DNA of 43,764 nt from Fragilaria crotonensis (Eukaryota > Bacillariophyta > Fragilariophyceae > Fragilariales > Fragilariaceae), in the NCBI GenBank assembly GCA_022925895.1, contig JAKSYS010000528.1, positions 1 through 43,764 on the forward strand. The letters run 5' to 3'. The notes below the pieces were generated by a model, which worked only from the letters and a program-made list of their open reading frames with translations, searched no databases and was not told where the DNA came from. The translations under genes were made by a program, and so were the position numbers. Below are positions 132 through 38,372 of the stretch, one piece after another; within the stretch, counting starts at the first letter, position 1, and each line of letters starts with the position of its first letter.

Positions 132-782
132 TCATGAGGCAGACACCATAGGCATGGTTTCTTCGACACAAGTGTTGCAGCAATGGAGGGCGGCGCAAAC
201 CAATCCGATGGTGTCGCACGACGTGGATGCTTCGGCAAGGCCATTGAAAAAATTGTTGCCGCACGAAGGATCGCAAGTACCGGTCGAGGCGTCCGTACAT
301 GCGGACACCCTTTCATCTTCCTGAACACAAACGTCCAGAGACACAGCCACAGGAGTCGACGGCCATGCACCAGTGGGAAGGGACGGCGCCGTTCCAGAAT
401 CTTGTGGTTGGGACACGGGAGCAAATGGCTGAATAACTACCACCGGAGAAAAAGAGTAAGGAGCAAAGACAGGGGCCGTTGTTGAAACCAAAGCCTGCTG
501 ACTTGGTGCTGGTGAAGCGAAGGGGGAGGAAAGTGCTGGCGAGGAGGATATAGGTGGGACGGTGGAATCAAGAGGAGAAGATGCAACTGGAACACCGCTC
601 GATGGAATCGATGCAACAGGGGGCGTTGTACCTAAGCTCTGACTTTCTACTGAGATCTGAAACACGTGCAAGGTGTAAGCTCCCTGAATCTCTTCGCAAG
701 AGTTGCATGTATCATTACCTCACTTGCGGCTGTCTGCGCTTACCAGAATGGCCAAAAGGGCGAGCGAACAAGATAAGCGCAT
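132..782 (-). CDS. Secreted 12-Cys-module protein, copy 1, truncated by frameshift
   Basis: First member of the tandem Cys-rich family. Exon 1 (782-744) encodes a 13-residue hydrophobic leader, MRLSCSLALLAIL. A phase-0 GT-AG intron (743-657, 87 bp) follows, then exon 2 (656-132), giving about 187 aa. After the leader come roughly 100 residues rich in Pro, Ser and Thr, then a Cys module with nine cysteines in the spacing of its neighbour at 1422-2202. The module stops early. Compared with that neighbour, one A is missing near base 155, which shifts the frame after the conserved CVEET and leads to a stop at 132. The last three cysteines and the hydrophobic tail are therefore lost, although recognisable decayed sequence continues to about base 35. 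It may be a recent pseudogene or make a soluble secreted form. The exon/intron structure is clear; function is unknown. Confidence 0.65.
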
Positions 783-1421
783 GTTGTTCGCTGTTCAAAT
801 AACTAAATCTTGTTGGCTGATGTCGTTTTTTTTTGTTTTTGAGATCTTGCTGTTGAGAGTTGGCCTTCATTCTGGAGTACTGTTACTCCTAGAGTAGTAG
901 CATCACGGCACCATCTGGTCGCATCATTCTCTGGAATAAGTCCTGACAAGGCACATGTAGTACTCTTCTACGGACTATAGACAAACAAACGCGGTCCGGC
1001 CTAATGATTATGTTGATGATTCAATATGTTACTTCACGAAAAAAGACAAACCGCGTCCCGTTGAAACGTGCTTATTAAATGCCTGAACGTGTTAGCCTTC
1101 CCACGTTTCATGATTCTCGTGTACTACGTAATATTCATAGTTGCACGGGACTTGGACGCCGGACTCCGTTTTGCACTATGTATGCATACACTCCGAGTAC
1201 GTCTATTCGGTATTCGGAACTTCGAAGCAATCGTAGTGTTGGGCCACCAGTTACAACGTACATTGTTCCTCTGAAGCATACTCCGGACTCTGCATATTCA
1301 TTATAATGTACTGCACGTTGCATGAATACAGCCGTTTAGGGTACGTACACCTAGGTCTTAAGTCATCACATGAATTCCGGACTACGCATCGTGGACACGA
1401 GGGATTGCTTCTACTACCACA
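783..1421. other. Intergenic, no gene seen
   Basis: This spacer separates copies 1 and 2 of the Cys-rich family. Only short unsupported ORFs are present. Bases about 1200-1380 hold several short palindromic words built on GTAC and ACTCCGGA, of the kind scattered through other spacers in the window. Confidence 0.6.
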
Positions 1422-2202
1422 CTACCACCACATTCCAAATCCTACCATGGAGGCAAAGAATACAATCGTGACCGCAATCGCATTTGATTCTGCGGAGGAT
1501 GAACTGCATTGGGTATCACCGCATTGCATGAGGTCCATGAGGCAGACACCATACGCATTGGTTTCTTCGACGCAAACGTTGCAGCACTGGATGACGGCAC
1601 AGATCAAGCCGAGAGCTTCACATTCGGACATATCTCCATTACTATTTTCCACAATACTGGCGCACGAAGGATTGCAAGCATCGGTCACAGTGGCCGCACA
1701 TGCGGTCAATCTTTCGTCCTCCTGAACACAGACTTGCAGAGACACCGCCACAGGAGGCGAAGTCCACGAGCCAACAGGAGCGTTTCCAAAACCTGTTGGT
1801 TGGGAAATGGGAGCAAATGGTTGGAAAAGTGCTGTAGGAGCCCAGGGAATAGGAGGAAATGGTGCAAAGGCGACAGGGGGGCTTGTTGGACCCGAAGTCT
1901 GACTTGGCGAAGGCCTGGCGATGGGAAAGGACGGTGGTGGTGTGGAGGATACAGGTGGAATGGTGGGATAAAACCATTGAGAAGTTGGAGACGGAGCACC
2001 CTTGATAGGAGCCAATGAAGTTAATGCGAAAGGGGGCGTTGTGGGGCCCAAGGTCTGGCTCTCTGCTGAGAACGTCTGAAACAAATGCAAGGCGTGTAAG
2101 CTCCGTCAATCTTTCGACAGAGTTTCACGTATCATTATCTGACTTGCGTCTGTCTGCGCTTACCAGTACGGCCAAAAGGACGAATGAAGAAGATTTGTGC
2201 AT
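1422..2202 (-). CDS. Secreted 12-Cys-module protein, copy 2, intact, with hydrophobic tail
   Basis: Exon 1 (2202-2164) encodes the leader MHKSSSFVLLAVL. The phase-0 intron (2163-2076, 88 bp) starts with the same 14 bases as in copy 1. Exon 2 is 2075-1422, giving about 230 aa. The mature protein has a Pro/Ser/Thr-rich stretch of about 110 residues and then one complete module of 12 cysteines, spaced C-x9-C-x7-C-x3-C-x13-C-x6-C-x4-CC-x2-C-x9-C-x6-C-x4-C. It ends in a Ser-rich spacer and about 20 hydrophobic residues finishing in GMWW, with no charged cytoplasmic tail. That end is typical of a GPI-attachment signal, or else of a C-terminal membrane anchor. I infer a cell-surface or wall-associated protein. 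I do not recognise a named family. Copy 1 is its closest relative in the window. Confidence 0.8.
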
Positions 2203-2967
2203 GTTCGCTGTTCCAATTTCAGCGCTTCAAACTCTCGTTTATGCTTTTTGTGTGAGATCCTCCAGGTAAGAGCATTCCCATTCTATCGCGTTTATGATTG
2301 CACTACGAATGCTGCGACATGAATTCATACCAGAAATAGGCTTCCGACCCAAGATTCGATGTTACATAACCGACGTATCGAAAATCGAAACGTGCTTGAA
2401 TGCGTGAACGTTTCTACCTTCGCATGTATCATAATGCTGTTGGACTCAAACTGACACTATCCACCGGTCAGCTCCGTAGGCAAAGCGTTGCCTTTGAAGT
2501 ACTTCAACATCACATTAAATCGTGCTTGGCAATAGGCCCAAAGTCAAATACCTGGTGGCAACTTTCTTAATCCTGAAATGATCCAGCTGACTGAATGCGC
2601 TCATTCGACCGTGAGATTTTTTCCCTTTTGTAGGGTGCACTGAATTGTATTCCCCTCGTTCAATCCACCTGGAACATGCTTTCTTTTTCGTGGGCACTCG
2701 TCACATTGAGTATGAGAAGGATGATCACAGCAAAACAGCAACGCCGGCCCGCTACTACGCGATGAGGAGAGAATTTTTTTGTGGAAGAAGTTCCATAACA
2801 CTCAGCTGTTAGTAGTGTACAATGCGATCGTTACCTCGTTCAGTGTCGAGTCAATGGAGTCACGACAACAGATCGAATTCCGCACCATACAATCAAGAAG
2901 GAACTTCTGAGCAGCTCGCAGTCCTTGCAGTCGCCAAAGTTGGTATCGAGCAAGTACAAGAACAATA
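2203..2967. other. Intergenic, no gene seen
   Basis: Spacer between copies 2 and 3 of the Cys-rich family. The short reading frames here lack start context, paralogue support or recognisable domains. Part of the spacer (about 2515-2700) resembles 3770-3920: both contain TTAATCCTGA...ATGATC and the stretch ending in a GAAGGATGATCAC-like string. This suggests that intergenic DNA was duplicated along with the genes. Confidence 0.5.
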
Positions 2968-3358
2968 CTAAGGACGTTCAAATGCATTTTGTCTATTTTT
3001 CCAAACTACGCAAACACAACATGAGGGAATGCCTCTTTTCGTTACAGACTTTCGAACCCCGCAATTGAGACCAAGAAGGCGATCGGGAATGCAATGATAT
3101 GCTGCAGGTCGGATGGATGGATCAAACCATCGAGACGTTTCTTCTGGAGCAACGTTTGAAGGAGTGATTGAAGGTACATCAGTGGCTGTTGTTGGTGGTG
3201 TGCCTAGAGTCTGGCTTTCTGTTGAGACCTGAAATAAATGCAAGGTTTGAAAGCTCGGTGAATCATTATGCCATTGTTGCATATGCATCTTTCACTAACT
3301 TTCATCTGTCTGTGCTTACCAGAACGGCCAAAAGTGCAAGTGGCGACGATAGTCGCAT
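2968..3358 (-). pseudogene. Secreted 12-Cys-module protein, copy 3, remnant without the Cys module
   Basis: The signal-peptide exon is preserved (3358-3320, MRLSSPLALLAVL), as is the phase-0 intron (3319-3229, 91 bp, starting GTAAGCACAGACAG). Exon 2 begins at 3228 with VSTESQTLG, clearly matching copies 1 and 2. Similarity runs for only about 40 residues, to the point matching WF-P-I-P in copy 2. It then turns into unrelated sequence with a stop at 2968, giving at most 99 aa. The whole Cys module and the anchor are missing, so a deletion or rearrangement removed the 3' half. A short secreted peptide cannot be excluded, but a degraded tandem copy is the simpler reading. Confidence 0.65.
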
Positions 3359-4551
3359 GTTGTTTGCTGCCGAAGTTGCAATGATTCTAACGATGTTGAT
3401 GCATCATTAGTGAAATACTGAAGAATTTGTGAGATCCTGCTCAGACTTTTTCGCCTTCTTGCTTGTTTATCACTCTGAATCTTCCACTTTTGAGACGTGC
3501 TTGCGTGGGGCGTCGCATGGCGAACGTGTCAAACAATCCCCTCCGAGTATTCGTTCTACTGTATGATACGTGTACCGGTAGAGTTCTCTGAGTACCAGGT
3601 ACTCATACTGTACACGGTTCAGTAGGTTCGTCGTGTTCGCTGGCTGCAGAGATCTTTCGGCACATGAAGTCGAGTCGTGTTCGCATGCTGGCATTACAGA
3701 GATTACAGTGCTACCACGTACCTTACGAGAAGTACAAGTACCGGTGTTTCTTGTTCTGGTCGAACCCTTCTTAATCCTGATGATATGATCATGCTGACAA
3801 CAGTTTGTGTTCATTCGATTGTGTGATTTGCGAATGCACTGAACTGCACTCATCGAGTTCATCTACCGGGAGCATGCATTCTCTTTCCTGGACTCGCATC
3901 ACATCGATAATGCGAAGGATGATCACTGCAGAACTGAATTGATGAGAACCTCGCAACACACACACACAACACCCTTTGTGCCATCAATGTTGATATCGAG
4001 TAAGAAGATGAGACGAAATGAGAGCATGAGACAAACTATCGAAACAACATCCAACCTTCCATTTATTCGTTTTGGACTTCGCAACGGCGACATGCCAAAT
4101 TGCTGCTTCTGTTTCTCCGCTACGACAATGTCGAAAACCCCACTGCATTGAGTTGTGGAAATCCATGAGGGTGTGATTGGAGTTGACATGAAGCCGTTTC
4201 CAGATTAAATGAACAACGACCAGAAACGCGCCTATTCCGTTCCAAGAAAAGTGACAGCTGCACCACAACCAAAATGACTACAAGCTAATGCGGGAAAGCA
4301 CACACACACGTATGAAGATAACAAGGAGTTTTACTCGCGTAACAATCACCACCATCACAGACATCTACCTTACCGTTTCTCGCTACTGACCTTTTTACAA
4401 TGGCCGACTGACAGGAAAGTATCGAATGATTCCGAACCAAAAGTTCTCCCAATTGATTTGTCTCACACGTCATTTCCAAGCAAGTGTTGAGAAAGCAGCA
4501 ACACAGTCACAACCATAAACGCACATGCGCTACTAATAGCACTCCGTTCCA
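3359..4551. other. Intergenic, no gene seen
   Basis: About 1.2 kb between copies 3 and 4. Short overlapping frames on both strands (for example around 3470-3862 and 3923-4268) have no recognisable domain and no paralogue in the window. A short CA-repeat tract lies near 3956-3972. Confidence 0.5.
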
Positions 4552-6003
4552 CTACCATACAGATCCATCCAACATGACTGCAACTCCCATCATGGTCGCC
4601 ACAAGAACGGACCAGATTGTCGTATAGGAAAAGGATCCATTCGTGGGCGCCGCAGTTTTGGCTTGATTGACATTTTCATTCCTCAAGGTCGGGGTATTGG
4701 ATGGACGAAATGTGACGGATGGGGCTGAGGAAGGATCTGACATTTCCACATTAGGGGCGGTTGGGTTATTACCCACGGGTGCGGATGTGGTAGTGGGCAT
4801 CATATCGACTGGTGGATTTGGTGTCATACCAGATGACGGCATCATTACCTCTCCTGCAGGAAAAGGTGAGGATGAAGATTCAACACTTGGAGCAGTTGAT
4901 CCCGAAGGTTCCATCATGGGCATCCCCGAGTTCGAAATGGAAGGGAAATCCGCCGTAGTGGGTGCAATCGGCGAGAAGGATCCACAGTTACTGCTGCACT
5001 CAAAGATGGATGCAAGGCAGGCACCATACGCTTTGCCTTCGTTGGCACAAGCAGTGCAACATGTCAGCACATCGCAAATGACTCCAATCGAATCGCATCC
5101 ATTGAATTCACTGGCTGCTGTCACGTTATCACAAGAACCCTCACATGACGGAGCCGTGCTTGCCAAACAACCGTACCAGCCCATTGTTTCCACCTGACAG
5201 TCATCGCTGTGAGCATTGGAAGGATTGAGTGGAGGAAAAGTAAAAGGTGGAAAGGTCAACATGGCGGGGGAAAAGGGCATTGCCGGAGAGGGTGCTGAAG
5301 GTGTAGTATCGGTACAGTCAATGCTATCGCAAGATGCAGCGGTGCTACTGCAGTCCACCACCGTCATTCCGAGCGCTGCACACGATGGGCAACATATGAA
5401 GGACTCGCAAGCGTCTTGGAGATCTCCACAGATTGACCCAGTAGACGTTGTGTTAGACAAGGAAAGACATGAAGTTAGGCATTCAAGAGGATTTGCCATG
5501 ATGCATTGCCTCAAAGCCTCGTTGTCGTCAGCGCAGCTGGCATCCACAAATGGAGGAAGGGTAATGTCGGACCCTCCCGATGGCGGGGAAGACGGAGACG
5601 TAGTCGTCGTAGGAATACTATCACATCCCTCGGTAACACAGTCTGCAAGCATGCAGTTCTTGTATTCGATGACAGATTCGGCGCAAGTCGGGCAACAAGC
5701 GGCGAGAGAGCAATAGGTTGGTTCTTGTGTGCAGTTGCCAGGCGTTTCTATCAAATCAAGCTCACCGTTGGTGCAACTTATGCCACAACCAACAATATTG
5801 GCAGAAACACAGGTATAGTAATCGGTGATATTGCAATCCTGCCCCGTAGCGAGGGCCTGTGGTGCGAAATGCGAGGATGAGAGATGCGAAACGTGAAATT
5901 CATGAGTTGAAATTACAATGTGGCTGCTGAACTTCTGAATGACCTGAGGAATGTTTGGGCTTACCGAAAGGGACACGAGAGCGAGGAGAGAACTGAAGTA
6001 CAT
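4552..6003 (-). CDS. Secreted protein with three 12-Cys modules and GPI-like tail (copy 4)
   Basis: Exon 1 (6003-5965) encodes the 13-residue leader MYFSSLLALVSLS. A 108-bp GT-AG intron (5964-5857) follows, then exon 2 (5856-4552), giving about 447 aa. The intron is a multiple of three and has no stop, so the frame also reads through it unspliced (483 aa). The position, matched to the family, argues that it is removed. The mature protein has three modules of 12 cysteines each, including the invariant CC-x2-CA core. The modules are joined by short Pro/Ser/Thr linkers, one with repeated PPFTFPPL-like units. A mucin-like Ser/Thr/Pro stretch of about 120 residues and a C-terminal hydrophobic segment follow. 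I infer an extracellular, disulfide-rich protein held at the surface by a lipid or membrane anchor. It is the largest member of the array and has no visible lesion. Its biochemical role is unknown. Confidence 0.85.
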   Translation of the reverse strand: MYFSSLLALVSLSVSPNIPQVIQKFSSHIVISTHEFHVSHLSSSHFAPQALATGQDCNITDYYTCVSANIVGCGISCTNGELDLIETPGNCTQEPTYCSLAACCPTCAESVIEYKNCMLADCVTEGCDSIPTTTTSPSSPPSGGSDITLPPFVDASCADDNEALRQCIMANPLECLTSCLSLSNTTSTGSICGDLQDACESFICCPSCAALGMTVVDCSSTAASCDSIDCTDTTPSAPSPAMPFSPAMLTFPPFTFPPLNPSNAHSDDCQVETMGWYGCLASTAPSCEGSCDNVTAASEFNGCDSIGVICDVLTCCTACANEGKAYGACLASIFECSSNCGSFSPIAPTTADFPSISNSGMPMMEPSGSTAPSVESSSSPFPAGEVMMPSSGMTPNPPVDMMPTTTSAPVGNNPTAPNVEMSDPSSAPSVTFRPSNTPTLRNENVNQAKTAAPTNGSFSYTTIWSVLVATMMGVAVMLDGSVW

Positions 6004-7581
6004 TTTTGTTCTTTGGTTATTGGTTGTAAGGGGAGCTGATCTTGAATATTACGATTTCCAATGTCCAGTGAATGAATTATAATACTATTTGAGTTGAATC
6101 CATTGGCAAATGCCACACGAGGGTGTGTGTGCCACCACATCATAAACCATAGCCAGCACCTAAGTCCTGGGAACTCGATTGATTCCCACAAACGGAAGTA
6201 TGCTGTTTGTCAGAAAAGTACACGCCAGTTTGGCGTAGTTGTAGGGTGGCTCCAGGACGGTGCCTTCGTTGTTGCGTGCGCAGTGCATGGTGAAGAGGTT
6301 GATGTGCTCCTGCTCTTGTGGACAGCGGTCACAAGAAGCGAACTTCTGAATCTGTTTCTGTTCCGTGTATCGTGACAAATGAAAAATGAAGGACTCGAAG
6401 GACATGCACAAGACTCGGAGTTTATGGAGAATTTCAGGTCTTCGGCCGCCCGAAGATGGATCAAGCAACGATCACATTTCTACCGTACCAGGTAGTAGAA
6501 AGCATAGAGTACGTCGTTCGTACAACTAATGTATACTACTGCATACAGTGCTACCAGGTAGTGTACCAAGAATAGCACGTTCATTTTGAGGTTGTGTTTT
6601 TTTTACTGCATACAGTGCTACTGTAGTTTCGTGTTACAGTACTCCGTGTAAGCTGTAAGCTGTAAGCTGTAAGAGGAGGCTCGTACGACTGCGCTTACTG
6701 TACTTCAATACTGTAAAGCTCTCTACTACTGTATGCATAGTAGATAGAAGTGTTCTGAAGACCTCCTTAACTTGTAACACATAGATCACAGATCTATTAA
6801 TAGGTCGGTGCATCACACAAGTATAGGTATAATTTGATGGTCACAGTGCCCCATGTTGTCGGTGGCATTTCATAAATGCACAAGTATTATGCCCATTCTT
6901 CTCTCTATCCGCACTAGGATACAACTCCGTTGTTTGCCGTCAACGCCAAGGACGGTAACGACGAAGAAACTTGATGCAGTATTGTCCACAATTTACGGAT
7001 TCATGACATGTGCGGGGCATCGCGGGAAAACCTGGGTAGTAGCAGACGTATTAGGGGAAATCACTAGGACGCTGCTATTGGCCACACCAACAAGTCAATT
7101 GGAGGTGAAATCAACTAGACTGTTCCCTTTCTTTCACCACGTCTCGGAAGCACCTTTGCTGAGATCCCCAGTTCCAGTTCGCTGTTCGAGTCCTATTCGT
7201 GTGAAACTTGCATCTCCCAACGACTTGCGTTCCGAAAGCATTAAATCAGGCGAGTACATGGGATGCTCGAGGACCAGGTTTTCCTTTCTCGGGTGATGTT
7301 GCAGTGTGTGCGGATTTATTGGGTGACTGTCTTCCCGAGGATCATGAACCAATGAATTCTGGGGTCATAGCATCGACGTGAACTGTGCGTAGCAAACTAA
7401 CGCGGGTGGCAGTATCGAAGTCATGGTGCAGGGTGCAGTATTGTACATTTTGTCCTAATAGCTTAAGTTACCTTGTAGCTGAGGAATGGTGATACATTTG
7501 ATACAACTCTATCAAGTGAGAAGCGGCCAAGACTTCCACGTACATGTTTGACAGCCAAGAATACAATACAAGGAGAGACGA
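6004..7581. other. Intergenic, one doubtful small ORF
   Basis: This spacer lies between the copy 4 gene and the glycosyltransferase gene. An ATG-started plus-strand frame of 147 codons (6853-7296) has no signal peptide, domain or paralogue, and I do not call it. Bases 6480-6640 contain repeated words such as TACTGCATACAGTGCTAC (about 6537 and 6604) and GTACCAGGTAGT, next to a 7-bp tandem repeat at 6648-6673. Confidence 0.45.
6648..6673. repeat. 7-bp tandem microsatellite (GTAAGCT)n
   Basis: The heptamer GTAAGCT is repeated about 3.7 times without mismatch. It lies in intergenic DNA and has no evident function. Confidence 0.85.
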
Positions 7582-8781
7582 CTATGCCAGTCCTTCGTGA
7601 GCCACTGATTGAATCACAGCACGATTCCACGTATCACGCCAGAGTCCCAAGGCCCAATCTGGAAGCAAAAGGGTGTTAAGCAATTCCGGGATAAATTCGT
7701 CTGGTAACGTCATCAGGGAAGTGCCGTTCACTGGTATACCGATATCTGGGATTGCAAACCATGCTTCCCATGGCTTGGGCGTTCCAATGTAGTGAACCAC
7801 AGAGCAATCATGGTATGTATCATTGTGCTGGTACTTTGGTCGTTGATTGAGGCGCGATTTCGGGTCCTCTGGCTCAAACCGTTCCGGGAAGCGCTGAGCG
7901 TATTCAAAAAATACATCTTGATCTGTGTATGCCTCTCGTCGCATCATTGTCTTATAATCAATATCGGTGCAGTTTCCCATGCATGTACCATTGACAAGCA
8001 TCTCAACCATGTACGAGAAGGTCGTGTCGTTTGGTCTCGCCAGCATAACGCCATTGTTGAAGTAGTAGCGGCTACCGACAGCCAAAAAGTCAAGTTGTGG
8101 CTTTGAACGAAATCTTTGGATAATGTCGTACATGCAATCAATGAGATCCCCTCGCGCCAGTGTGTCAATATCAATGTAAAACACAATATCGCATTCCACA
8201 ATGTCTGGTCGAAACAAAAGTATTTTCGAGAAAACGTCTCGAAAACGTTCTTGGACAGACGAACGATGAAGTGCAATGGCACTCAATAAATTCTGAGGCA
8301 GGTCAACCATCTTAACTTGAGCCCCGAGGGCTTCCAGTATTTCTTTTTCCAAGGGCTGGATGGTATTATTGCCGACAACAATTACCAGGGGTGGATGGGA
8401 TGTCAATGCACTGGACTCTGCCAGAGACGCCACAAGAGCAACTGATCCATTGAAATATGACGGATCACAAAGGAAAAGAACGAACCTAGTCATTTCACGG
8501 ATCGCCGTCAAGTCCACCTTGGCCACTTTTCGCAGCAATGCCCCATTGAAGATTCCTTTACTTTCTTGGGCAAAGCCGAGGGTTGATGTTTTGTTTCTGC
8601 TTTCATTGGGTGTCAGCTCCGTCCTACAAGCGATGCCCCTAGATTTGTTGACGTTGGTCAGCACTGGAACCGTGATGAAGAATCGGATGAGAACATTCGT
8701 GCTCACCACTAGAGCAATCAAAGCCAAGATGCGCCAAACGTTGTGTAGAATAGATCCAGGATGATCTCTTGGGATGCCCAT
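7582..8781 (-). CDS. GT8-like glycosyltransferase, type II membrane protein
   Basis: A single-exon gene of 399 aa. I place the start at the ATG at 8781, because the frame is open further upstream only from a GTG. Residues about 17-36 form one membrane segment behind a short N-terminal tail, as in Golgi type II transferases. The lumenal part shows hallmarks of glycosyltransferase family 8, the glycogenin/LARGE/galactinol synthase type. These are the metal-binding DxD in FYIDIDTL (Asp204 and Asp206), the acceptor-side YFNNGVMLARP (240-250), a TDQDVF motif (286-291) and the C-terminal HYIGTPKPW (330-338), where the family His-x-x-Gly-x-x-Lys-Pro-Trp binds the nucleotide sugar. The enzyme should transfer a sugar from a nucleotide donor to a glycan in the secretory pathway. 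Donor and acceptor are not visible. It sits inside the array of secreted Ser/Thr/Pro-rich proteins; a functional link is possible but unproven. Confidence 0.87.
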   Translation of the reverse strand: MGIPRDHPGSILHNVWRILALIALVVSTNVLIRFFITVPVLTNVNKSRGIACRTELTPNESRNKTSTLGFAQESKGIFNGALLRKVAKVDLTAIREMTRFVLFLCDPSYFNGSVALVASLAESSALTSHPPLVIVVGNNTIQPLEKEILEALGAQVKMVDLPQNLLSAIALHRSSVQERFRDVFSKILLFRPDIVECDIVFYIDIDTLARGDLIDCMYDIIQRFRSKPQLDFLAVGSRYYFNNGVMLARPNDTTFSYMVEMLVNGTCMGNCTDIDYKTMMRREAYTDQDVFFEYAQRFPERFEPEDPKSRLNQRPKYQHNDTYHDCSVVHYIGTPKPWEAWFAIPDIGIPVNGTSLMTLPDEFIPELLNTLLLPDWALGLWRDTWNRAVIQSVAHEGLA

Positions 8782-9847
8782 TGGATGAACACATGTAAGT
8801 AACACACTACCTTCCACTGTAGTATAATTGCAGGTTCTGTTGTTGCGTTCTGTTCTCTCAAGTTCGGCACAGTTGACACGACTGATGTTGAACCACTGCG
8901 CTCAAGGTTCGCTGATTGGTTTGGGGGGCGACAATTGTATATTGCGAGGGTGTTATATACATATTCATAGTCGAATTATAGTGCAACGTTCAGTACGTTC
9001 TATCGTACTGAGAACTCAACGGGAAAAAATCAAAATTCGAATGTTCATACTTCGTATGCATACACAATACACATACACACCTATCTGAACGTGCAGTGCA
9101 TGCAATGAGACAACTTTTATGTGGAAATAGGAAGTAGGAAACAGGAACAGAAAAGGGAATGTGTGATACATTCTAATCGAAACCATGGTACTGTATGATT
9201 GTGGTAGATTTCAGGGCTATTCAGTGGCTCGATGATATGAACTGTGGAGAGCGACGAGCGCACTCACCACACAAACATCATGATAGATGAGAAATCAGAT
9301 CAGACTCAGGGAATCGTGTCATTCAAGCTTCTGTTACTCCAACAGGTGGATGCTATGATACATCAACTTGATTGCATGAAAGAATTAAACTTGCGTAAGG
9401 GCATGCACTCTTTGTAGTAGTGACTTTTAAAATCGTGATAAGTACGGCCACAACCTCTTGGCGTAAGACAATTTGCTGAAAACCAAACAGTGCAAGGGGA
9501 CGTTTCCAGGCAGTCGCCCTCATCCACCAGCAATAAAGTCGAAACATTCTTGAACGAGCACGTCACCAACTACCAAAATGCCATGCACCATATCCATGTT
9601 GGAAGGACGAAACTCAGGAGCACACCGAAACCTACAATACTACTACAAATTAGCAACCACGTCAACAAATAACTTCTCAACACTGTACCCTGTTACTCTG
9701 GCTATCCGTGATGTCCTACTCTGAATACGCATTACGAGCATAGGCTATTCGCCTCACAATTACTGGTCAATACTTCCACAACTCTTGTCGTACAGGTTGA
9801 ATTCTCGCTGAGCCTCCAGTACTGGTGTTGGAGGTATGATACCGTTT
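8782..9847. other. Intergenic, no gene seen
   Basis: This holds the upstream region of the glycosyltransferase gene and the 3' flank of Cys-family copy 5. From 9671 on it is a near-duplicate of 14309-14490. The short frames present lack support. Confidence 0.5.
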
Positions 9848-9850
9848 TTA
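9671..9850. repeat. 3'-flank duplicate shared with 14309-14490
   Basis: About 180 bp just downstream of the stop codon of copy 5 is nearly identical to the sequence just downstream of copy 6. Both begin at ACTTCTCAACACTGTACC and continue through TACTCTGAATACGCATTACG into the last codons of the genes. This shows that the two genes were duplicated together with their 3' flanks, relatively recently. Confidence 0.85.
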
Positions 9851-11047
9851 AGCCACGGATTGAAAAAAGGCTGCAAATCCCATAATGGCGGCAAGAATTG
9901 CAGACAAGGCAGTCGATTCTGCAAAGGCTCCGCTCGGGGAGGTAGGAGCTTTGGTTTTCGTACCATTGGATAGGTCTGGAGTCGGTATGGTCTCGTTTCC
10001 AGTCGTTGGACTAGCAGCAGGAGCCGACGTATTTGCCACTGGAGTGATTGTTCCTACGGGAGCAGTCGATCCATCTGGAGCAGTCGATCCTACTGGAGCA
10101 GTTGATCCAACTGGTGCGGAAGTGGATGCATCAGTCGGGGATGGAGATTCAATGACTGGGGACGGAGATTCCATGATCATTGGCATCATCGAGGAGATAA
10201 TTGAAGGAAAATCCACCACCGTGGGCGCAAAGGGCGCGAAGGATCCACAATCATTGGTGCACTGGAGAAGGGATGCCATGCAGGCAGCAAAGGCCCTTCC
10301 TGGGTCGGCGCAAGCATCACAACAGGCCACGCTGTCGCAAAAGGACGTGTCGATAGCATCGCATCCAGTGAGCTCTGAGCCGGAGTCCAAGTTATCGCAC
10401 GCATCGATGCACGTCACAGCATTGCCCAGAATGCAAGTGAACCATACATTGGCTTCCTTTTGGCAGAGTCCGCTGGAAGGTACATTCGGCGGAAGAGATA
10501 TATCCGGAGGAAAGCTAAATGGCGGAAGCGTAAACATACCCGGGCTGTACGGCGGCAGCGTCAAAACCGGAGAGGGTGCTACAGGAGCACAGCTGATAGA
10601 AGGGCAGGAATTTGCGGAAGAGACGCATTCCAACAGAGCCGCTCCAAGAGATTGGCACGATGAGCAACAAGAAAAAATAGAGCAAGATGCTTGGAGATCA
10701 TCGCAGGGTGATCCAGTAGTGACTTGGTCTGACCTGCATGCACCAGTACCACATTCCAATATATTTGTAAAGATGCATCGAGTATAAGCCTCAGTTGCAC
10801 TTGCACAAGTGTTTTCGAAGAATGGAGGAAAGGTGACGTCGACACCACCGATTGATGGAATTGCGGGCGATGGCGAAGACTGGCCCTCAGCAACTGCCTG
10901 TAAGGTGTGATGCGCAGCGTAAGGAGGGACGATTTTGTGAGAATAATTGGCTTGACAACACTTCAGCAGGTAGTCTCAATTACGGCTGTGATTGTTCATG
11001 CTTACAAGGAGGCAAACGAAGGTGAGGAGGGAACCGGGGCCCATCAT
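9848..11047 (-). CDS. Secreted protein with two 12-Cys modules and GPI-like tail (copy 5)
   Basis: Exon 1 (11047-11006) encodes the 14-residue leader MMGPGSLLTFVCLL. The phase-0 intron (11005-10898, 108 bp) runs from GTAAGC to TTACAG. Exon 2 (10897-9848) completes about 363 aa. An AVAEGQSSPSPA stretch leads into module 1 (12 Cys), a Pro/Phe linker (LPPYSPG, LPPFSFPP), module 2 (12 Cys, ending in C-x3-CGSFAPFAP), and a mucin-like region. That region contains near-perfect 6-residue repeats of the type APVGST. The C-terminal segment is hydrophobic and ends in FFQSVA. The protein is predicted to be secreted and surface-anchored. The sister gene at 14489-15767 shares leader, modules, tail and 3' flank. 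Function is unknown. Confidence 0.85.
10050..10117. repeat. 18-bp coding minisatellite in copy 5
   Basis: About 3.7 copies of an 18-bp unit (plus-strand core GGAGCAGTCGATCC) encode the APVGST-type repeats of the mucin-like stalk of copy 5. The sister gene has diverged here, so the repeat number varies between paralogues. Confidence 0.7.
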
Positions 11048-13302
11048 TATGGTTTATGTCTGACACGAGTTCGGATACAAAGTATTTGACGAGCGATCTT
11101 GGATCTTGCGAGCTGAGTTTTATGGCACGATTTATGCTGATCGATGAATCTTCCGAACAGGGTAAAAGATTTACCAGAATCAGGTGTGTTGATCGCCTCT
11201 TTAACTCACCTCTCTGCTTGGTATTAATTTTATGTAGAAGATACGAAACGAAATCTATCTTAACATATGGAGAATTACTGCACCTCGCTGGCACGAACCT
11301 AATGTACCATAATCCTCCTTCGTAGAACTCTACTATCATCCTCGAATAGAACGAGTCCTCGACAACGAAATTAGCCGCGCTGCGAAGACGACAAGGACCA
11401 GGTACTAACAACAATGGTTGGTAGACATCACCCAATCTTTGTTCTGCAAGAACCAACCAACGGCGGCTTCAGAAAACATATAGGTACCTTGTACCTCCGC
11501 TCGCATACGTTGGTCTTCCCTGTTTCAGTATTTTTCCTTAAGTGGGGAAATGTCGAAAGAACGCAACTTGAAGGCTTAGCTCGAAGATACGGATCTAAAA
11601 GTGTTTCCGCCTCGACACTATGGCTGGTTTCATTGTTTTCTTACATATAGTACAACCTGTGTAGACTCAGTACAAATTTTTGTGACGTCATGAATTCGAA
11701 CACGACCTTGCATCCTCGCAGATCCAAACAACACGATCGGCACCACACACAAAAAAGGTTTGCGGACCATGATGGCAAAACGATGACTTCACCAACATAC
11801 ACTTTGAAACTGCCGACCCTTTTGCTGCATTCGGCTCAATCATCCAGTTAAGGACATTGTTTGGCTTGGAAGGGTCGGCAGTTGGGGCATGATGACAGCA
11901 CTACGGGTATATCTACCAACGACTACCGAAAACAACCGTTGCCATCCTGAACGTTTGTACTTCCGCCAGTGAACAAATGTAACTGATAGTTTATTGTGCT
12001 TTGCATTTGTCTCCCATCTTCCTTGCATCAAAATATTGAATTATGATCTCCAAGTAGTAGTCCAATAAGCGTTGGGAGTCTCCTGATTTCTTCATAATTG
12101 TGCTACCGACTTACCACATCAATTTTCCTACAACTAGTGTGCTCAAGCATGCAGCTTCAAGATCAGCAATTCTACAAGGATGTTTTGTGTTTGCATTATC
12201 TATCTGCTGATGAAGAGTCGTAATAACATGATCTGGTGGGATATTTTTGACTCCAGGGTGGTTCCGAGCGAGGCGATGCAACAACACCATGCGAGTTGTG
12301 TGATTTCACAAGGAACTAGAAATCCCAAGACAGCGTGCACAGTCACTACTTTGCCTTGGGCTTTGAACACAGGTTTTCTGACTTTATCGGCCTCCAGAAA
12401 TGACTTCACAACCTTCTACTTAAGCAGCCACGATCAGGATCTGGAGCGGTCGCTTTGCTTCTCATTTAAACACCAAGACTGACCGACATTCCTGCTATAT
12501 CAATGATCACTCTTAGGAGTAGGCACCCACGCCCAAAATACCCAAAATTGTTGTCAATCCTCTTGTCAAGTAGTAGCAGTCTTTCCGACGTATCAACGGC
12601 CTCAGCAATTTTGACAGCCTCAAAATGGGTCCAACTGTCAGTATGGAGCTGCATGACGGGAGCATGTCATCATGATTTTAACGGTCAATGTGATTACATC
12701 CTCAACATGACCAAGTTTGTCGTCCAGTGAAGAGCACCGGACTGATGAAGCCGGCTGATTCATTTCTCGCTCTTCCCAGCATTGGTAATGAGTGTCACAG
12801 TCATCCTCAAGCAACTCGTCGTGGCTCTGCTCCACGTCTAGGAAAAGGCAACGAGCACCTTCTACGAGACAATTGTCACAACCAAGATAGACTCATTTCT
12901 ACCAGTGGGGTCCCTAATTGACTTGAAACACCGAGGAGATGTCAGCAGAAGATGGAGACATCCTCGTGCTGTGGTTGGAGCATGATGTTACGTCGTGTGC
13001 GATGGGAAGGTACAACCGGAAAATTGGCTTCAGCTAAATTTTTTTATTACCGCGTCTACGCATTCCAACGATATGCAGGTCCAGGATGAAACCAGCCATA
13101 TCTTGACGTGACACCGGTGCCTTTTGAGTGTGAGATCAAAGATAGCTGCCATGAATGCGCACATATTAATAGTGGGACTAAAAACATTTAATCGATACAC
13201 AAAAAACCCAAGAAAATTTGAGCGCGCAAAATAACCAAAAAGATATGTTTAGTAGGAGTTCTTTTTTGGCTTATTTTCTTAACTAATAAGTAGTTGGACT
13301 GT
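11048..13302. other. Intergenic, no gene called
   Basis: About 2.25 kb upstream of copy 5. Several minus-strand frames between about 12200 and 12835 are open for 60-70 codons in succession with frame changes between them, so this may be a decayed gene. I recognise no domain. A plus-strand frame at 11056-11325 is also unsupported. Bases about 13071-13100 (GATATGCAGGTCCAGGATGAAACCAGCC) resemble 28860-28890. Confidence 0.4.
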
Positions 13303-13678
13303 CGTGCATCCAGGCTGTGTTATTTTGGGAACTTTTTCTTATTTTGGGAATTTGTTCCCAATTAAACATTTTAAAAGTTCCCGAATTAAACCGTGTAGAA
13401 TACGTAGGATTCAGTAGAGATCATCTGGCCATCGCCCGAATCTTTTTTGGACTGGCGTCGTACTGGCGACTCGGTCAAATAAGTACTGAATTACTGTATT
13501 ACTGTATGATATCATCAATGTACTGACGATCCACGTAGCAATCACGTAGGACTCACACTGTACTGTGTACTGTAATGTTCCCAATTAAAGTTCCCAAAAT
13601 AAGTTTCAAAAATGTCCCGAAATAAGTTATTTCGGTGTTTTGGGGAGCTTTCCCAAAATAACACAGCCTGCGTGCATC
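13303..13678. mobile_element. Non-autonomous hAT-like MITE with 21-bp TIRs and 8-bp TSD
   Basis: The element spans 13311-13670 (360 bp). Its ends are perfect 21-bp inverted repeats: CAGGCTGTGTTATTTTGGGA plus A on the left (13311-13331) and the exact reverse complement on the right (13650-13670). It is flanked on each side by CGTGCATC (13303-13310 and 13671-13678), an 8-bp target-site duplication. An 8-bp duplication together with a terminal CAG is characteristic of the hAT superfamily. The motif TTATTTTGGGAA and its variants recur several times inside both ends as subterminal repeats, as expected for transposase-binding sites. There is no transposase-sized frame, so the element depends on an autonomous partner elsewhere. 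Both ends and the target duplication are intact, so insertion was probably recent. Confidence 0.9.
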
Positions 13679-14488
13679 TATCGATTTATCGTATGATATT
13701 GTGAATTTTGAAAACAATTCACGTTCCACCTTGCGCCGCCAAAAATTCTTCCATAACTACACAAGTAGACCTACCAATGTAACCCCTGCTGAGTCACTGA
13801 TAACTACCGTTCTTAAGTAGCGCAATCAACAGGTTTTGTACTAAGTACCATGCTTCATAGTTCATCGTTCATCGATCAAATCCAGCGGGTTCGGTGATGA
13901 TATTACTCATTACTCCGAATCCGAATCCCACAGGACTCGCCGAACATCAGTGTCGAAAACAACGTATCAAGGTCAGAACGGTGTTTCCAAAACGTCGAAC
14001 TTCAGTTTTAGGCCTAGACCAATGAATTCACACTGTGGATTGGAAATTCCGCTCTACACTTCTCCCGTGCTATTCTGCATCTTGCATCCTCTGTAAGAAT
14101 AGGTGGATGACAAAGCCGTCTTGACCTCGTTGAGAAAACCACGGAAGTGTAAAACACAAGTTACGTGCTGGATTCCTTTGCGTGTGATACATGACTCAGT
14201 GCAGCGCCGACATCCCGCTATCGTCATGCCCTCCCAGCCTGTCGCCGGGCTACCAACGATGACAAGCGCGGTACACAAAGTATTAACACATCAACTACAT
14301 GAAAACTTGCCTACTTCTCAACACTGTACCATGTTACTCTGACTATCCGTTATGTCCTACTCTGAATACGCATTACGAGCATAGGCTATTCGCCTCACAA
14401 TTACTGGTCAATACTTCCACAACTCTTGTCGTACAGGTTGAATTCTCGCAGAGCCTCCAGTACTGGTGCTGGAGGTATAACACCGTTT
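13679..14488. other. Intergenic with duplicated segments
   Basis: This spacer lies between the MITE and copy 6. Bases about 14100-14280 are related to about 16720-16910, sharing a GTGCAGCGC..GACATCC core and CTGTCGCCGG..CCAACGA. Bases 14309-14488 duplicate the 3' flank of copy 5. No gene is supported. Confidence 0.5.
14100..14282. repeat. Dispersed repeat, related to about 16720-16910
   Basis: The two segments share the ordered blocks TCAGTGCAGCGC-GACATCC, CTATCGT, CTGTCGCCGG-CT-CCAAC and AAGCGCGG. The intervening bases have diverged. Neither copy shows inverted ends. The repeats lie on either side of the copy 6 gene, so they may mark edges of the duplicated unit. Confidence 0.6.
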
Positions 14489-15767
14489 TTAAGCCACGGA
14501 GTGATAAAAGGCTGCAAATCCCATCATGGCGGCAAGAATTGCAGACAAGACAGTTGACTCTGCAAAAGCTCCGCTCCTAATGGTAGGTGCTGGGGTTTTC
14601 GTACCGTTGCCGAGGACTGGAGCCGGCGTGGTCTCGTTTCCAGTCGTTGGACTAGCAGCAGGAGCCGAAGTATTTGTCACTGGAGCAGTTGTTTCTACCG
14701 GAGCAGCCGTTCCCACTGGAGCAGATGTGGTACTCGACGACGGTGCCGCCACTGGTGCGGAAGTGGATGCATCAGTCGGAGATGGAGATTCAATGACTGG
14801 GGATGGAGTCGCCATGATCGGCATCATCGATACACCGGGTGGGATTGGCATCAGCGAGGAGACAATTGAAGGGAAGTCCACTGTAGTAGGTGCAAAGGGT
14901 GCAAAGGAACCACAATCAGTACCGCACTGGGCAAGAGTTGCAAGGCAGGCAGCAAAGGCCTTTCCGACGTTGGCACAAGCATCACAGCAAGTCAAAACGG
15001 TGCAAAAGTCACTGTCGAAAGAAACGCATCCTTCGAATGTTGAATTTGTGTCCACGTTTTCACACTGAGTATCACACGTAGTAGCGTTGTTTATCAAACA
15101 CGTCACCCATCCGATAGATTCCTCTGCGCAGAATTCGGTTTCGTTTATGGAAGGTAGATTCGGCGGAAGAGACAAAACAGCGGGATTGAATGGGGGAAAC
15201 GTCAAAGAGGCGGGGTTGAATGGCGGAAACGTCAAAGCAGCGGGGTTGAATGGGGGAAGCGACAGAACTGGAGAGGGTGCCGCTGGAGCAAAACCACAGT
15301 CAACAGTAGTGCAGGAATATGCGCCAGCGACGCATTCCAACATGGCGCCTCCAAGAGCTTGACAAGCTGGGCAACAGGTAAGAAGATCGCAAGATGCCTG
15401 GAGATCATCGCAGGTTGACACAGTATCAACTCCGTTGGAATCGCAAGTGTCCGCACATGAAAATACATTCGAAAAGAGGCACTGATTAAAAGCCAGACTT
15501 TCCTCTGCGCAAGTGCCGAAACCACCGAGTGACGGAGAGATGATCGATGGAGTCGCGGGCGATGGAGAAGACTGGCCATCAGCATGTGCCTATAATGTGT
15601 GTTGTGATGCGCGATGTCAAGGGATGCGAGAGTGTGAGAAAAAATGACTTGACAACATATCTCTCGTGAAGAACAAACACTACGTGCAACAAATATCCAT
15701 CGCGACTGTGACTGTTTGTCCTTACCAGGAGGCAAGCGAAGGTGAGGAGGGAACAGGGGCGCATCAT
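14489..15767 (-). CDS. Secreted protein with two 12-Cys modules and GPI-like tail (copy 6)
   Basis: Exon 1 (15767-15726) encodes the leader MMRPCSLLTFACLL. The phase-0 intron (15725-15590, 136 bp) runs from GTAAGG to TTATAG. Exon 2 (15589-14489) completes about 380 aa. After AHADGQSSPSPA come module 1 (12 Cys), a linker with three 10-residue repeats of the FNPAALTFPP type, module 2 (12 Cys), a mucin-like Ser/Thr/Pro region and a hydrophobic tail ending in FYHSVA. It is closely related to copy 5 in leader, module 2, tail and 3' flank, but its linker and stalk repeats differ. No lesion is visible. I infer a secreted and surface-anchored protein; function is unknown. Confidence 0.85.
15183..15262. 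repeat. 30-bp coding minisatellite in copy 6
   Basis: The plus strand shows about 2.7 copies of a 30-bp unit (core GGGTTGAATGG-GGAAACGTC). It encodes the three FNPA-x-LTFPP repeats between the two Cys modules. Copies 4 and 5 have shorter, diverged versions of this linker. Confidence 0.8.
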
Positions 15768-21630: not shown

Positions 21631-22749
21631 TTATTTGATCTTGTCCACCTTGGCCAAGATCGTGTCAGCATCCAAATCTTCCAAGGTATCGAAGACGGAC
21701 ATCGTCTTCCCAGGAGCAGTCTCGCCTTCAACTTGCACCTGCGCATCCTCAGCCCACTTGGCAATCGTTTCCTTTGGCACCTTGGTCAAGAGTGCTTTTC
21801 CATAAGGATCCTGTTCCACAGGCACACCAAGCCAATTCATGCGTTCGGCCAAGGCTTCAAAAGGCGATGCTGACGCATGGACACCATTATCACCAGTGTT
21901 GGGTTTGGTAGACAATCCCAACTCCTTGTAGTGGTCCAAAATTTCACGTCGAATCGAAGATTTGGGCGCGGTGGCGGGATCGGTCGCTCCCAAAACCTTG
22001 CCACGAAAGTCGGCCCAGGACAGAGAGTCAGCCGGCCAAGAGACTGTGTACCATTGAATCTTTTCACCAGGATTGGTGTAGGCGGCTCGCATTTCCATGT
22101 AGAAGCCGTTCATGACGTAAATATCGCCAACCTTACCACAGTAGAAGCCTCCACCAAACTTGATGAGGTCCTTCTTCTTATCCAATTTCGACCACAAGTC
22201 GTTCATACCAGCAGCATCCGTTTTGAGCTTTGCTGCGGCGTCCTTGGCATTGTAAACCTTACCGGCCTTGATGGCATCGTCCCAAGATTCGCCGAACAAT
22301 TCCTTGAAACCTGCCTTTCCCTTATCTGGGACATTCAAATCCTTGGGCTGCAACTTGACTGCCTTGCTCGCAATGGCACCATAATGAGTATCGATATGCA
22401 TCTTCTCATCGATAACTTCCGCCTTCATTTCGCCCTTACTCGTGATGCGGATTCCATGCGATCGGAACGAGTCTTCGACGAGCGATTCAACCTTTCCTGG
22501 TGTTCCCTTGCAAGCATGTGGCTTGACAAAGACAAAGGCAGAATTGGTCTTGCCAGCAAGTTGAACTTGCAAATCCTTGTTTTGCTTTTCCAACTCGTCG
22601 ACCTTTTGCAAACTATATCCCGCCACTGCAAATGCTGCCAAACCAACGACAACACCAAAGGTTCCACCACCACCACCACCTCCTCCGGAAGAAGAAGAGA
22701 AATGACGACTGGCGACGCGAGTCGAAGAACGGAAGGAATTGCTCCACAT
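21631..22749 (-). CDS. Large NDPK-like protein, probably mitochondrial
   Basis: 372 aa from the ATG at 22749; the frame extends upstream only from TTG. The N-terminus (MWSNSFRSSTRVASRHFSS) is rich in Arg and Ser and lacks acids, as in a mitochondrial presequence. A Gly run, a membrane segment (about 31-45) and a short coiled coil (46-65) follow. The rest is a nucleoside diphosphate kinase fold split by an insertion. The first half has FVFVKPH (72-78) and the helix-strand unit with HYGAIASKAV. The second half has VLGATDP (about 252-258), SIRREIL and NGVHASAS, whose His (about 291) matches the phosphorylated active-site His of NDPKs (N-x-x-H-[GA]-S). About 110 residues separate the halves, so the protein is roughly twice the usual NDPK length. 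A kinase role in nucleotide balance is likely, but activity is not proven. A fragment of this gene recurs at about 28665-28720. Confidence 0.85.
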   Translation of the reverse strand: MWSNSFRSSTRVASRHFSSSSGGGGGGGGTFGVVVGLAAFAVAGYSLQKVDELEKQNKDLQVQLAGKTNSAFVFVKPHACKGTPGKVESLVEDSFRSHGIRITSKGEMKAEVIDEKMHIDTHYGAIASKAVKLQPKDLNVPDKGKAGFKELFGESWDDAIKAGKVYNAKDAAAKLKTDAAGMNDLWSKLDKKKDLIKFGGGFYCGKVGDIYVMNGFYMEMRAAYTNPGEKIQWYTVSWPADSLSWADFRGKVLGATDPATAPKSSIRREILDHYKELGLSTKPNTGDNGVHASASPFEALAERMNWLGVPVEQDPYGKALLTKVPKETIAKWAEDAQVQVEGETAPGKTMSVFDTLEDLDADTILAKVDKIK

Positions 22750-23578
22750 GGTCAAGGTGTTTTTGGCTGTGTTGTGTACCGGAGCCAATGCCTTTTCCAG
22801 GGCGTGCTGTAGGATACTGTACGTGTAGCGCTCCTAGGAGGCCCCTCTACTACGGTAGTGAAGCTTACAACGTGTTCGTGCAGCGCTTAAGATTCTACGG
22901 CAGACGAGGACTGAGTTCCAATCCGAATCTTTGGTATTTGTGAACCCGTCCGTCCGACGTCGCCAGTCCGACTCCACCCGTATCCCGTATCCCGCCACCC
23001 GCCACACGCCTCCAGATTTGGAACTGCTGCACCATTGGGGTATCATACTACGGTCTATAGTACAAGTACTCCAGTATGACATACAAGGTACTTTGAGAGA
23101 GTCTCTGAGTACAAGTACTCCAGTGCTCCACGCCTTTCGTTTGCAAAATACCATAGACCATAGCGACACTGCTGCTTTGCGGGACGTTTCGTTCGCTGCA
23201 AGCACCAGACTGATACTAGTAGTATTCCAGTATGACAAACACATCAGCGATTAAATCCATCCAATAAGTCAGCATGTGGCTCTCGCGCCAAACCATCAGA
23301 AATTTCCTATGCATATACTGTCGTATCTTTCGTACTTGAACTCTACTCCGATTATGCATCATGTTGTCAACGCCATTCCCATGATGACATGCAGTAGAAG
23401 TACTATGATACCAATTTCAATCCCACTCACCATACGTTCAAAACGAAAACAGTTTTCGGAACAAAAGCACTCCGTTTTGTCCATCTTTACTCTTGATACT
23501 TAACTCCAGTGTATATAAAGTCCATTCCATCTCATAATAACTTTACCACTTGGCAGTCGGAACACTCGCTACATCACC
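22750..23578. promoter_or_regulatory. Shared upstream region of divergent NDPK-like and A1 genes
   Basis: The NDPK-like gene (minus) and gene A1 (plus) point away from each other across about 830 bp. Several GTACTCCAGTA palindromic words lie at about 23040-23120. The A1-proximal half (about 23225-23310) recurs upstream of A2 at about 28918-29005, and the NDPK-proximal segment (about 22906-22970) recurs at about 28735-28790. The shared blocks show that this control region was duplicated with the genes. Promoter function is inferred from position only. Confidence 0.5.
23512..23520 (+). promoter_or_regulatory. TATA box of gene A1
   Basis: TATATAAAG lies 59 bases before the A1 start codon, a plausible distance for a short 5' leader. 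The corresponding site upstream of A2 is weaker (CATAAATTTAT, about 29179-29189). Confidence 0.5.
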
Positions 23579-24197
23579 ATGAAATCCACTGCTTTACAGT
23601 CAATCAGCGACGATAACGTTGCAAGATCTCAGAGCAGCTCTACGGCATCGGTTTCGTCTTTGTCCGACACCGTCAAGGCCACCAATCGGACCACCAAGTC
23701 GTCATTCCAGGCATCCGATGAGCCTTTGCCTTCTGCCCTTTCCGGTACGTACAGTGTGGTGCTACTCTGTCGTCCTTTGGGCAACCACCACTCACCTATT
23801 TCGCAATTCATCTCATTTCACAGATATCAATCATGGTGCCTTCCATGCTGTCTGGAATGGCATAACTGATTCTCAAAAGATGATGTTGGCTGGCCTTCTT
23901 GAGTCCCTCCTGGAAATGCCACAAGCTGATCCACTCGTAAGGACCAAAATGCTGTTGGGATTTCACTACAACCTTACCTATCATGATAACTCCCCAGAGC
24001 ACGCCTCGAAGGTGTCGGACTTGCTCACTATCTTGACTGATCTACCTTTGGACGCTGTGCGAGCAATGCTTTTGTTGACCCGAGACATTTTTGTCAGGGG
24101 TGGACCTGATTCTGTATCATTAATGTCGTTTTCACTTAACAGTGGCCATACGGATAAAAGTCCTAATGACGTTGCCGGCTTTCCCTTCAAGGACTAG
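23579..24197 (+). CDS. Gene A1: Ser-rich N-terminus plus helical domain, unknown family
   Basis: Exon 1 is 23579-23744, the intron is 23745-23823 (79 bp, GTACGT to TTCACAG), and exon 2 is 23824-24197. Splicing joins a split Asp codon (G/AT) and gives about 179 aa. The first 55 residues are rich in Ser and Thr, with STASVSS and TVKATNR shared by all four paralogues. The remainder is helical, starting FHAVWNGITDSQ, with a conserved HASKVSDLL..LTDLPLDAVRAML core. There is no signal peptide or membrane segment, so it is probably cytosolic or nuclear. I do not recognise the family. A2 is about 90% identical. Relative to A2, B1 and B2, A1 lacks the first intron and reads through SSFQASDEPLP instead. 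The gene has an upstream TATA box and a conserved 3' flank. Confidence 0.75.
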
Positions 24198-38063: not shown

Positions 38064-38372
38064 GTCATAGCGGGACTGCACGCACTATTGTAGACTGTAG
38101 ACCAATAATTTTAGGCGACTAATACACAGGTTGTGACTGCTATTACGGTGTACAGTGCACAGTGTGTATTATTTTTTGGCGCCGAGTATTGCGCGAACCA
38201 TGAGGATCAAAAGCACGAATGTACACTTCTACTGTGTGTATTGTCCAGTGCATAGTGCATACCGATCCGTGACCAAAATCCGGAGCATGTTCAGGTCGTG
38301 CGGGTCTAATCTCTCAATTCGGGGCACACTCAAGCAACACACACATCCATTACACACTCAATTTGATCCACC
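38064..38372. promoter_or_regulatory. Upstream region of the OMA1-like gene
   Basis: About 300 bp without a gene. ACACACATCCATTACACACTC directly precedes the start codon context CCACCATG. No TATA box is obvious. Confidence 0.35.

Follow-up and report, generated by a model that had tools for sequence, protein, structure and literature searches.

Contig JAKSYS010000528.1 of the diatom Fragilaria crotonensis, whose whole length of 43,764 bases is called the window here (contig C479 of an assembly that counts 881 contigs and 62.1 Mb), carries between positions 132 and 15767 six related genes, all on the minus strand, and raises the question of what kind of protein these genes encode. The products of the intact genes are built on a module of twelve cysteines, the spacing of which an earlier note on this DNA could assign to no named domain; searches of Pfam, of NCBIfam and of the sequences and folds of the PDB gave no match above threshold. 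This module probably represents a building block of the surface or wall that has not been described before, set within what looks like a known kind of protein, the modular Cys-rich surface protein with a glycosylphosphatidylinositol (GPI)-like tail. The reading to which we give about an even chance is that of a diatom family, expanded in tandem, whose members are anchored by GPI at the surface or in the wall and in which rigid disulfide modules would stand on Pro/Ser/Thr stalks.

The twelve-cysteine module

The earlier note had counted four intact genes and two degraded ones, and this count holds: copies 2, 4, 5 and 6 have an exon 2 that is open throughout, copy 1 is broken by a frameshift and copy 3 is left without a module (Table 1). 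The eight complete modules that had been listed were all located in the four intact genes, three in copy 4, two each in copies 5 and 6 and one in copy 2. A loose expression for the twelve cysteines gives 8 matches in the real window compared to 0 in 200 dinucleotide-preserving shuffles, and again 0 when the residues of the four intact proteins are shuffled 2000 times each. In copy 1 the single module shows nine cysteines in the open frame, as had been described, and three more cysteines together with a hydrophobic tail are found downstream in a different frame; the gene is thus frameshifted between C9 and C10. Copies have been both gained and broken in the history of the array.

The order of the twelve cysteines given in the first consensus stands, but some of its distances had to be corrected. 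In the eight window modules the C4-C5 spacing is 10-13 residues and not 11-18, and C9-C10 is 9 in 8/8 and not 8 or 9. The distances of 3 between C3 and C4 and of 6 between C10 and C11 hold in 7/8 modules each, the exceptions being module 1 of copy 5 (4 residues from C3 to C4) and module 1 of copy 4 (4 residues from C10 to C11). C1-C2 is 9 in 7/8 and 7 in that same module of copy 4.

Single-protein searches of the genome add three further open-frame genes, on contigs C877, C869 and C32, which brings the family to 14 modules in 7 genes; this number of genes is a lower bound since the genome search scores the best candidates only. The picture of a purely tandem family is incomplete, given the members on these other contigs, one of which (C869) ends in a Lys-rich tail. 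Genome-wide, twelve cysteines are present in 14/14 modules. The spacings C6-x4-CC-x2-C and C9-x9-C10 are found in all 14, C1-x9-C2 and C2-x7-C3 in 13 (the latter distance is 18 in C32), and C3-x3-C4 and C10-x6-C11 in 12, and the variable stretches are C4-C5 (10-15), C5-C6 (6 or 7) and C11-C12 (3 or 4). Besides the cysteines, the best columns reach just 10 of the 14 modules (residues N, G and A). Each module counts about 75 residues, is acidic with an isoelectric point (pI) of 4.1-4.5, and holds 0 or 1 His.

In a quick tree of these short modules, in which the remaining supports are lower, the first modules of copy 4, C877 and C869 cluster together (support 0.95), as do the last modules of copies 4, 5 and 6 (support 0.905). 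This clustering suggests an ancestral layout of three modules, the first of which would have been lost in copies 5 and 6.

Table 1. Positions of the family genes and of their twelve-cysteine modules, in the window unless another contig is named
Feature	Position	Strand	Exons and remarks
Copy 1, degraded	132..782	-	exon 1 782-744, intron 743-657, exon 2 from 656
Copy 2, intact, 230 aa	1422..2202	-	exon 1 2202-2164, exon 2 2075-1422; one module, GPI-like tail
Copy 2, module	1500..1733	-	
Copy 3, degraded	2971..3358	-	first exon and beginning of exon 2 retained; without module
Copy 4, intact, 447 aa	4552..6003	-	exon 1 6003-5965, exon 2 5856-4552; three modules, GPI-like tail
Copy 4, module 1	5626..5844	-	
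Copy 4, module 2	5308..5538	-	
Copy 4, module 3	4978..5202	-	
Copy 5, intact, 363 aa	9848..11047	-	exon 1 11047-11006, exon 2 10897-9848; two modules, GPI-like tail
Copy 5, module 1	10583..10810	-	
Copy 5, module 2	10241..10468	-	
Copy 6, intact, 380 aa	14489..15767	-	exon 1 15767-15726, exon 2 15589-14489; two modules, GPI-like tail
Copy 6, module 1	15290..15514	-	
Copy 6, module 2	14906..15133	-	used for the structure model
C877 gene	84.85-83.98 kb		three modules, GPI-like tail
C869 gene	51.3-52.0 kb (L020 1108-2307)		two modules, Lys-rich tail
C32 gene	51.2-50.4 kb		one module, GPI-like tail

Domain searches and structure prediction

In Pfam, the four intact window proteins match 0 families at E ≤ 10, and the three proteins encoded outside the window give, at E ≤ 1, a sole hit to CHCH in C877 (E 0.01, 16.4 bits for a cut-off of 27.2). 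The eight window modules find 0 families in NCBIfam, a collection built for bacteria and archaea. Sequence-profile searches of the PDB, the second with a profile built from 11 of the 14 modules (8 from the window and 3 from C877), have CHCHD5 (PDB 2lql) as top match at E 0.48 and 0.31, which is sub-threshold. Two other matches were discarded: yfgJ (E 0.38), seen in a profile search and taken as chance, and Neogenin (E 0.57), the only one obtained with copy 6, which falls in the low-complexity tail.

A structure was predicted for module 2 of copy 6 from an alignment of the eight window modules. The model retained has a mean predicted local distance difference test score (pLDDT) of 82.4 and a predicted template modelling score (pTM) of 0.72, and displays four helices at residues 3-15, 17-23, 43-47 and 51-68; its four companions in that run range from 72.5 to 76.8 in pLDDT. 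A two-module model shows a similar helix order at a pLDDT of 42.6 and is not relied on. With the copy 6 module 2 model, Foldseek returned no PDB chain at E ≤ 10, which is no proof of a new fold, and the three rows obtained from BFVD (E 7-10, TM score up to 0.41) were taken as noise.

The twin CX9C contained in the module spacing (C1-x9-C2 and C9-x9-C10) is the likely cause of the weak CHCH signal. In the single confident model one CX9C spans helix 1, its first Cys lying one residue before the helix, and the other lies within helix 4. As regards the twin CX9C, the modelled unit may work like a CHCH hairpin. Unlike CHCH proteins, however, the family has eight further cysteines per module, gives no PDB fold match and begins with a signal-peptide-like exon instead of taking a mitochondrial route. 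CHCH proteins are imported into the mitochondrial intermembrane space by Mia40, and an exon of this kind speaks against such an import. Membership in CHCH (PF06747) was rejected, given that the scores are under the curated cut-off, that the proteins look secreted, and that the genome search for this domain finds 4 places (a lower bound), none of them at a family locus.

The twelve-cysteine spacing is not described in the extracts of the open literature that were covered (PMC5501833, PMC5525289, PMC4557024, PMC7972479, PMC6261938 and PMC6114903), which is no proof of its being unpublished.

Layout of the proteins

Surface proteins that a GPI anchor holds above a glycosylated stalk usually have a hydrophobic C-terminal end and a Ser/Thr/Pro-rich stretch. 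Signs of both the secretion and the GPI-like tail proposed for this family in the earlier note can be seen, the former as a signal-like start in the six window copies and the latter as a tail in copies 2, 4, 5 and 6. Indeed, all six copies share a hydrophobic, signal-peptide-like first exon, judged, like the tail, from the sequence and not by a predictor. In the spliced models this exon measures 39 or 42 bases (13 or 14 codons) and ends in phase 0 in 6/6 copies, and it is followed in 6/6 by a phase 0 intron that measures 87-136 bases and has GTAAG as its donor. At the other end, hydropathy shows that 6/7 proteins (copies 2, 4, 5 and 6, C877 and C32) have a hydrophobic segment with 1-5 residues after it. 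The same six proteins contain 20-26% Ser+Thr and 8-14% Pro, as counted over the stop-to-stop frame for C877 and C32. A signal-like start combined with a hydrophobic tail and no cytosolic part, which is the layout of GPI proteins, is found in the four intact window genes and is readable at C877.

Outside the array, C877 and C869 both have a readable first exon with a GT donor and with a hydrophobic start similar to that of the window copies; at C32 no such exon was identified. In C869 a Lys- and Met-rich tail with KxxK repeats replaces the hydrophobic GPI-like tail. This protein counts 38 Lys and 12 KxxK, and has windows with at least 5 Lys per 14 residues.

Two other matches of the single-protein searches lie outside the counted family. 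The one on C528 (E 0.24) was rejected, being confined to the low-complexity tail at a place where the frame encodes another protein, and the one on C179 stands at E 0.08. Scans of prokaryote and viral contigs with single proteins, by which close relatives only can be reached, confirmed no relative; these are non-diatom collections, from which the genome of the window may itself be missing, and the result says little.

Divergence and selection on copies 5 and 6

Copies 5 and 6 are the closest pair of the array. All 24 module cysteines are kept between them (24/24), and 7 of the Cys codons have silently switched between TGT and TGC. The amino-acid identity of the two modules is 0.48 and 0.50 compared to 0.75 for the tail. 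The usual order, in which low-complexity tails change faster than folded domains, is reversed in this pair.

Selection was estimated by Nei-Gojobori counts with a codon bootstrap, a test chosen after the pattern was seen. Over the 127 non-Cys module codons the ratio of nonsynonymous to synonymous rates (dN/dS) is 1.19 (bootstrap 0.79-1.79), a value raised by the omission of the conserved Cys columns. The Ser/Thr/Pro-rich tail gives 0.47 (0.29-0.74) and the linker 0.46 (0.18-0.99), and the 19-codon N-terminal part, at 0.91 (0.15-4.45), is too short for use. When the cysteines are counted, module 1 is at 0.97 (0.45-1.87) and module 2 at 0.61 (0.31-1.10), both overlapping the tail, and the two modules taken with the linker are at 0.67. 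Copy 4 compared to copy 5 or 6 gives 0.50-0.76 for the non-Cys module codons. Since leaving out the cysteines raises the value, the intervals include 1, the test is post hoc and the comparisons with copy 4 remain at 0.50-0.76, the result may be taken as a lead towards diversification and not as proof of it.

Comparison with cysteine-rich diatom proteins

The SiMat7-like proteins, with eight conserved cysteines, and Sin1, with 18 cysteines in an NQ-rich domain and a cytosolic tail, both carry an RxL site behind the signal peptide (PMC5501833, PMC5525289), and RxL is a mark of many biosilica proteins (PMC5525289). Compared by their descriptions, these SiMat7-like proteins and silicanins resemble the present family as luminal or secreted diatom membrane proteins with conserved cysteines and a C-terminal hydrophobic segment. 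They differ from it in that the family has repeated twelve-cysteine modules and only 1-5 residues after the hydrophobic segment, and in that RxL is missing from copies 2, 4, 5 and 6 and from C877 and is present once in C32.

The pleuralins have a PSCD domain of about 90 amino acids rich in Pro, Ser, Cys and Asp and a Pro-rich N terminus (PMC4557024). The likeness, by description, is one of style, namely modular Cys-rich repeats and Pro-rich parts in a diatom protein, and no pleuralin is named among the PDB hits at E ≤ 10 obtained with the module profiles. The frustulins share with the family acidic Cys-rich repeats, their ACR domains being calcium-binding wall repeats of about 50 amino acids (PMC4557024); an ACR motif is absent from 7/7 family proteins. 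CatCh1/ISIP2b proteins, in the extract that describes them, are characterised by CXC and CXXC motifs and not by a twelve-cysteine spacing.

The tail of C869 leads to another group. Marks of silaffin-like or silica-targeting proteins are KxxK, where X is S or G, and a pentalysine cluster, with five non-consecutive Lys in 12-14 residues (PMC5501833). The C869 tail, in which KxxK was counted for any X and Lys per window regardless of adjacency, resembles these marks. On the other hand, C869 carries twelve-cysteine modules, whereas at most one Cys is found in silaffins, cingulins and silacidins, all of them predicted to be disordered (PMC5525289).

Possible functions

According to the reading of GPI-anchored surface or wall proteins, the putative signal peptide would bring the chain into the endoplasmic reticulum, where each acidic module of about 75 residues could form a compact, mostly helical unit, as predicted, with at most six disulfides to hold it. 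A protein would have between one and three of these units, joined by Pro-rich linkers and raised by a Ser/Thr/Pro-rich, probably glycosylated stretch. The C-terminal hydrophobic tail, which has no cytosolic part, would be exchanged for a GPI anchor, by which the modules would come to lie within the organic wall layer or on top of it. There they may act as rigid structural or spacer units and not as enzymes, given that no non-Cys residue is found in more than 10/14 modules. In the C869 paralogue, the Lys-rich tail would bring the same modules in contact with silica.

Several observations weigh against this proposal. Modules that diverge more than their tails would be unusual for a purely structural folded unit. 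RxL is absent from C877, from copies 4, 5 and 6 and from copy 2 in its spliced part, and C32 has one. A search with Gpi16 for the GPI machinery of the genome gave no match, the controls being equally silent. The GPI anchor and the signal peptide are themselves putative, and so is the wall or surface role.

The divergence of copies 5 and 6, together with the gain and breakage of copies in the array, is what would be expected if the modules were a recognition surface, in which a fixed disulfide frame lets the exposed residues diversify for gamete or mating recognition or for defence against parasites and bacteria. We regard this as possible, though on the unlikely side. The excess of the non-Cys module codons over the tail (1.19 vs 0.47) comes from one gene pair, its interval includes 1 so that relaxed constraint is possible, and it is lost in the overlap with the tail when the cysteines are counted; moreover, the pairs with copy 4 give lower values even when the cysteines are left out. 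There is no known partner or mating-type link, and the extract on Pseudo-nitzschia mating-type genes makes no mention of cysteine or GPI (PMC6261938). Fast change alone cannot separate a wall role from a recognition role either, since silicon-responsive diatom genes are highly divergent while positive selection is seemingly not the driver (PMC5501833). A wider form of the same idea, which we judge quite unlikely, would see in the module an undescribed disulfide-locked helical fold used for fast-diversifying surface recognition, common to GPI-anchored receptors and to a silica-directed, Lys-tailed partner; the twelve cysteines would then be frozen and the other residues would change about neutrally or faster.

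A part in biosilica formation inside the silica deposition vesicle, with polyamines or Lys-rich partners as ligands of the acidic modules and with the GPI-like tail as their hold on the vesicle membrane, appears distinctly doubtful. It would fit the pI of the modules, the 12 KxxK and Lys-dense windows of C869, which recall the silaffin-like or silica-targeting marks, and the RxL that C32 has ahead of its module, and other membrane families with conserved cysteines do act in silica formation (PMC5501833, PMC5525289). Yet the Lys-rich tail occurs in 1/7 genes, and its KxxK and Lys windows were counted under looser rules than X = S or G and non-consecutive Lys, which they may for the most part not follow. 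Besides the five proteins without RxL, the C869 frame has two, one ahead of the likely start Met and the other inside the signal-like stretch.

Capture of nutrients or metals at the surface is very improbable. Fungal CFEM proteins are GPI-anchored, with helical Cys modules that bind haem, the CFEM domain having eight cysteines and an Asp as haem ligand. The family shares with them an outline, being apparently secreted, GPI-like, helical, Cys-rich and Ser/Thr/Pro-rich, but it has no conserved residue of ligand type outside the cysteines and at most one His per module, and the four window proteins have no Pfam match at E ≤ 10. Binding of metal or haem was dismissed for want of a conserved ligand residue; membership in CFEM itself was rejected on the twelve cysteines, the lack of a Pfam match for the window proteins and the absence of Asp from the columns common to at least 8/14 modules. 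More generally, the lack of any conserved side chain besides Cys makes it unlikely that the module is an enzyme or offers a fixed site to a metal or to haem. It is also unlikely that the module is an ordinary diatom domain already catalogued as an InterPro-only or PANTHER entry or as a described orthogroup. Diatom proteomes and InterPro did lie outside the scope of the searches, which leaves room for such an entry, but the searches that were made gave no Pfam or NCBIfam family apart from the sub-threshold CHCH hit, and the published diatom Cys patterns, in the extracts cited, are of other kinds.

Should no described family turn out to contain the module, it would be a new unit in the still poorly known repertoire of diatom surface proteins. 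Furthermore, the C869 paralogue suggests that one unit may serve both membrane-anchored and silica-type proteins, and the contrast between fixed cysteines and widely differing other residues would make surface recognition in diatoms testable from population data.

Other features of the window and genome

A glycosyltransferase family 8 gene (PF01501, E 8e-9) lies between copies 4 and 5 at 7582-8901 on the minus strand, and has four DNA relatives at 71-73% on C700. Its product might putatively act on the Ser/Thr-rich stretches of the family proteins. Between copies 5 and 6, positions 11619-13101 are occupied by a repeat of about 1.48 kb that is 97-100% identical on C72, C590 and C102 and represents a recent insertion into the array. 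A repeat of about 360 bp at 13310-13670, with at least 18 near-full genome copies at 91-98% among the matches listed, is probably a short non-autonomous element. DNA searches for a second haplotype returned repeats and relatives of the glycosyltransferase gene, with no long flank match, and are silent on alleles.

The diatom origin assumed in the earlier note agrees with the silicon transporters (SITs) of the genome, where the Pfam model has 19 matches, 18 of them over the cut-off and the best at E 4e-193. Three SIT matches stand head to tail in one frame of 1456 amino acids at C97:29749-33762, and two in one frame of 1008 amino acids at C771:21664-24330. Multi-SIT genes are known from araphid Synedra species (PMC6114903), and their presence hints at an araphid pennate diatom here too.

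Elsewhere in the window, two similar open frames on the plus strand (23583-24197 and 29539-29988) have no Pfam match at E ≤ 1, and the stretches 23521-23600 and 29168-29249 are 81% identical in DNA. An open frame of 400 amino acids at 21634-22833 on the minus strand shows a weak NDK match under the cut-off (E 0.0086) and is perhaps a divergent NDK-like protein. Finally, an M48 peptidase (PF01435, E 3e-26) is encoded at 38367-39542 on the plus strand.

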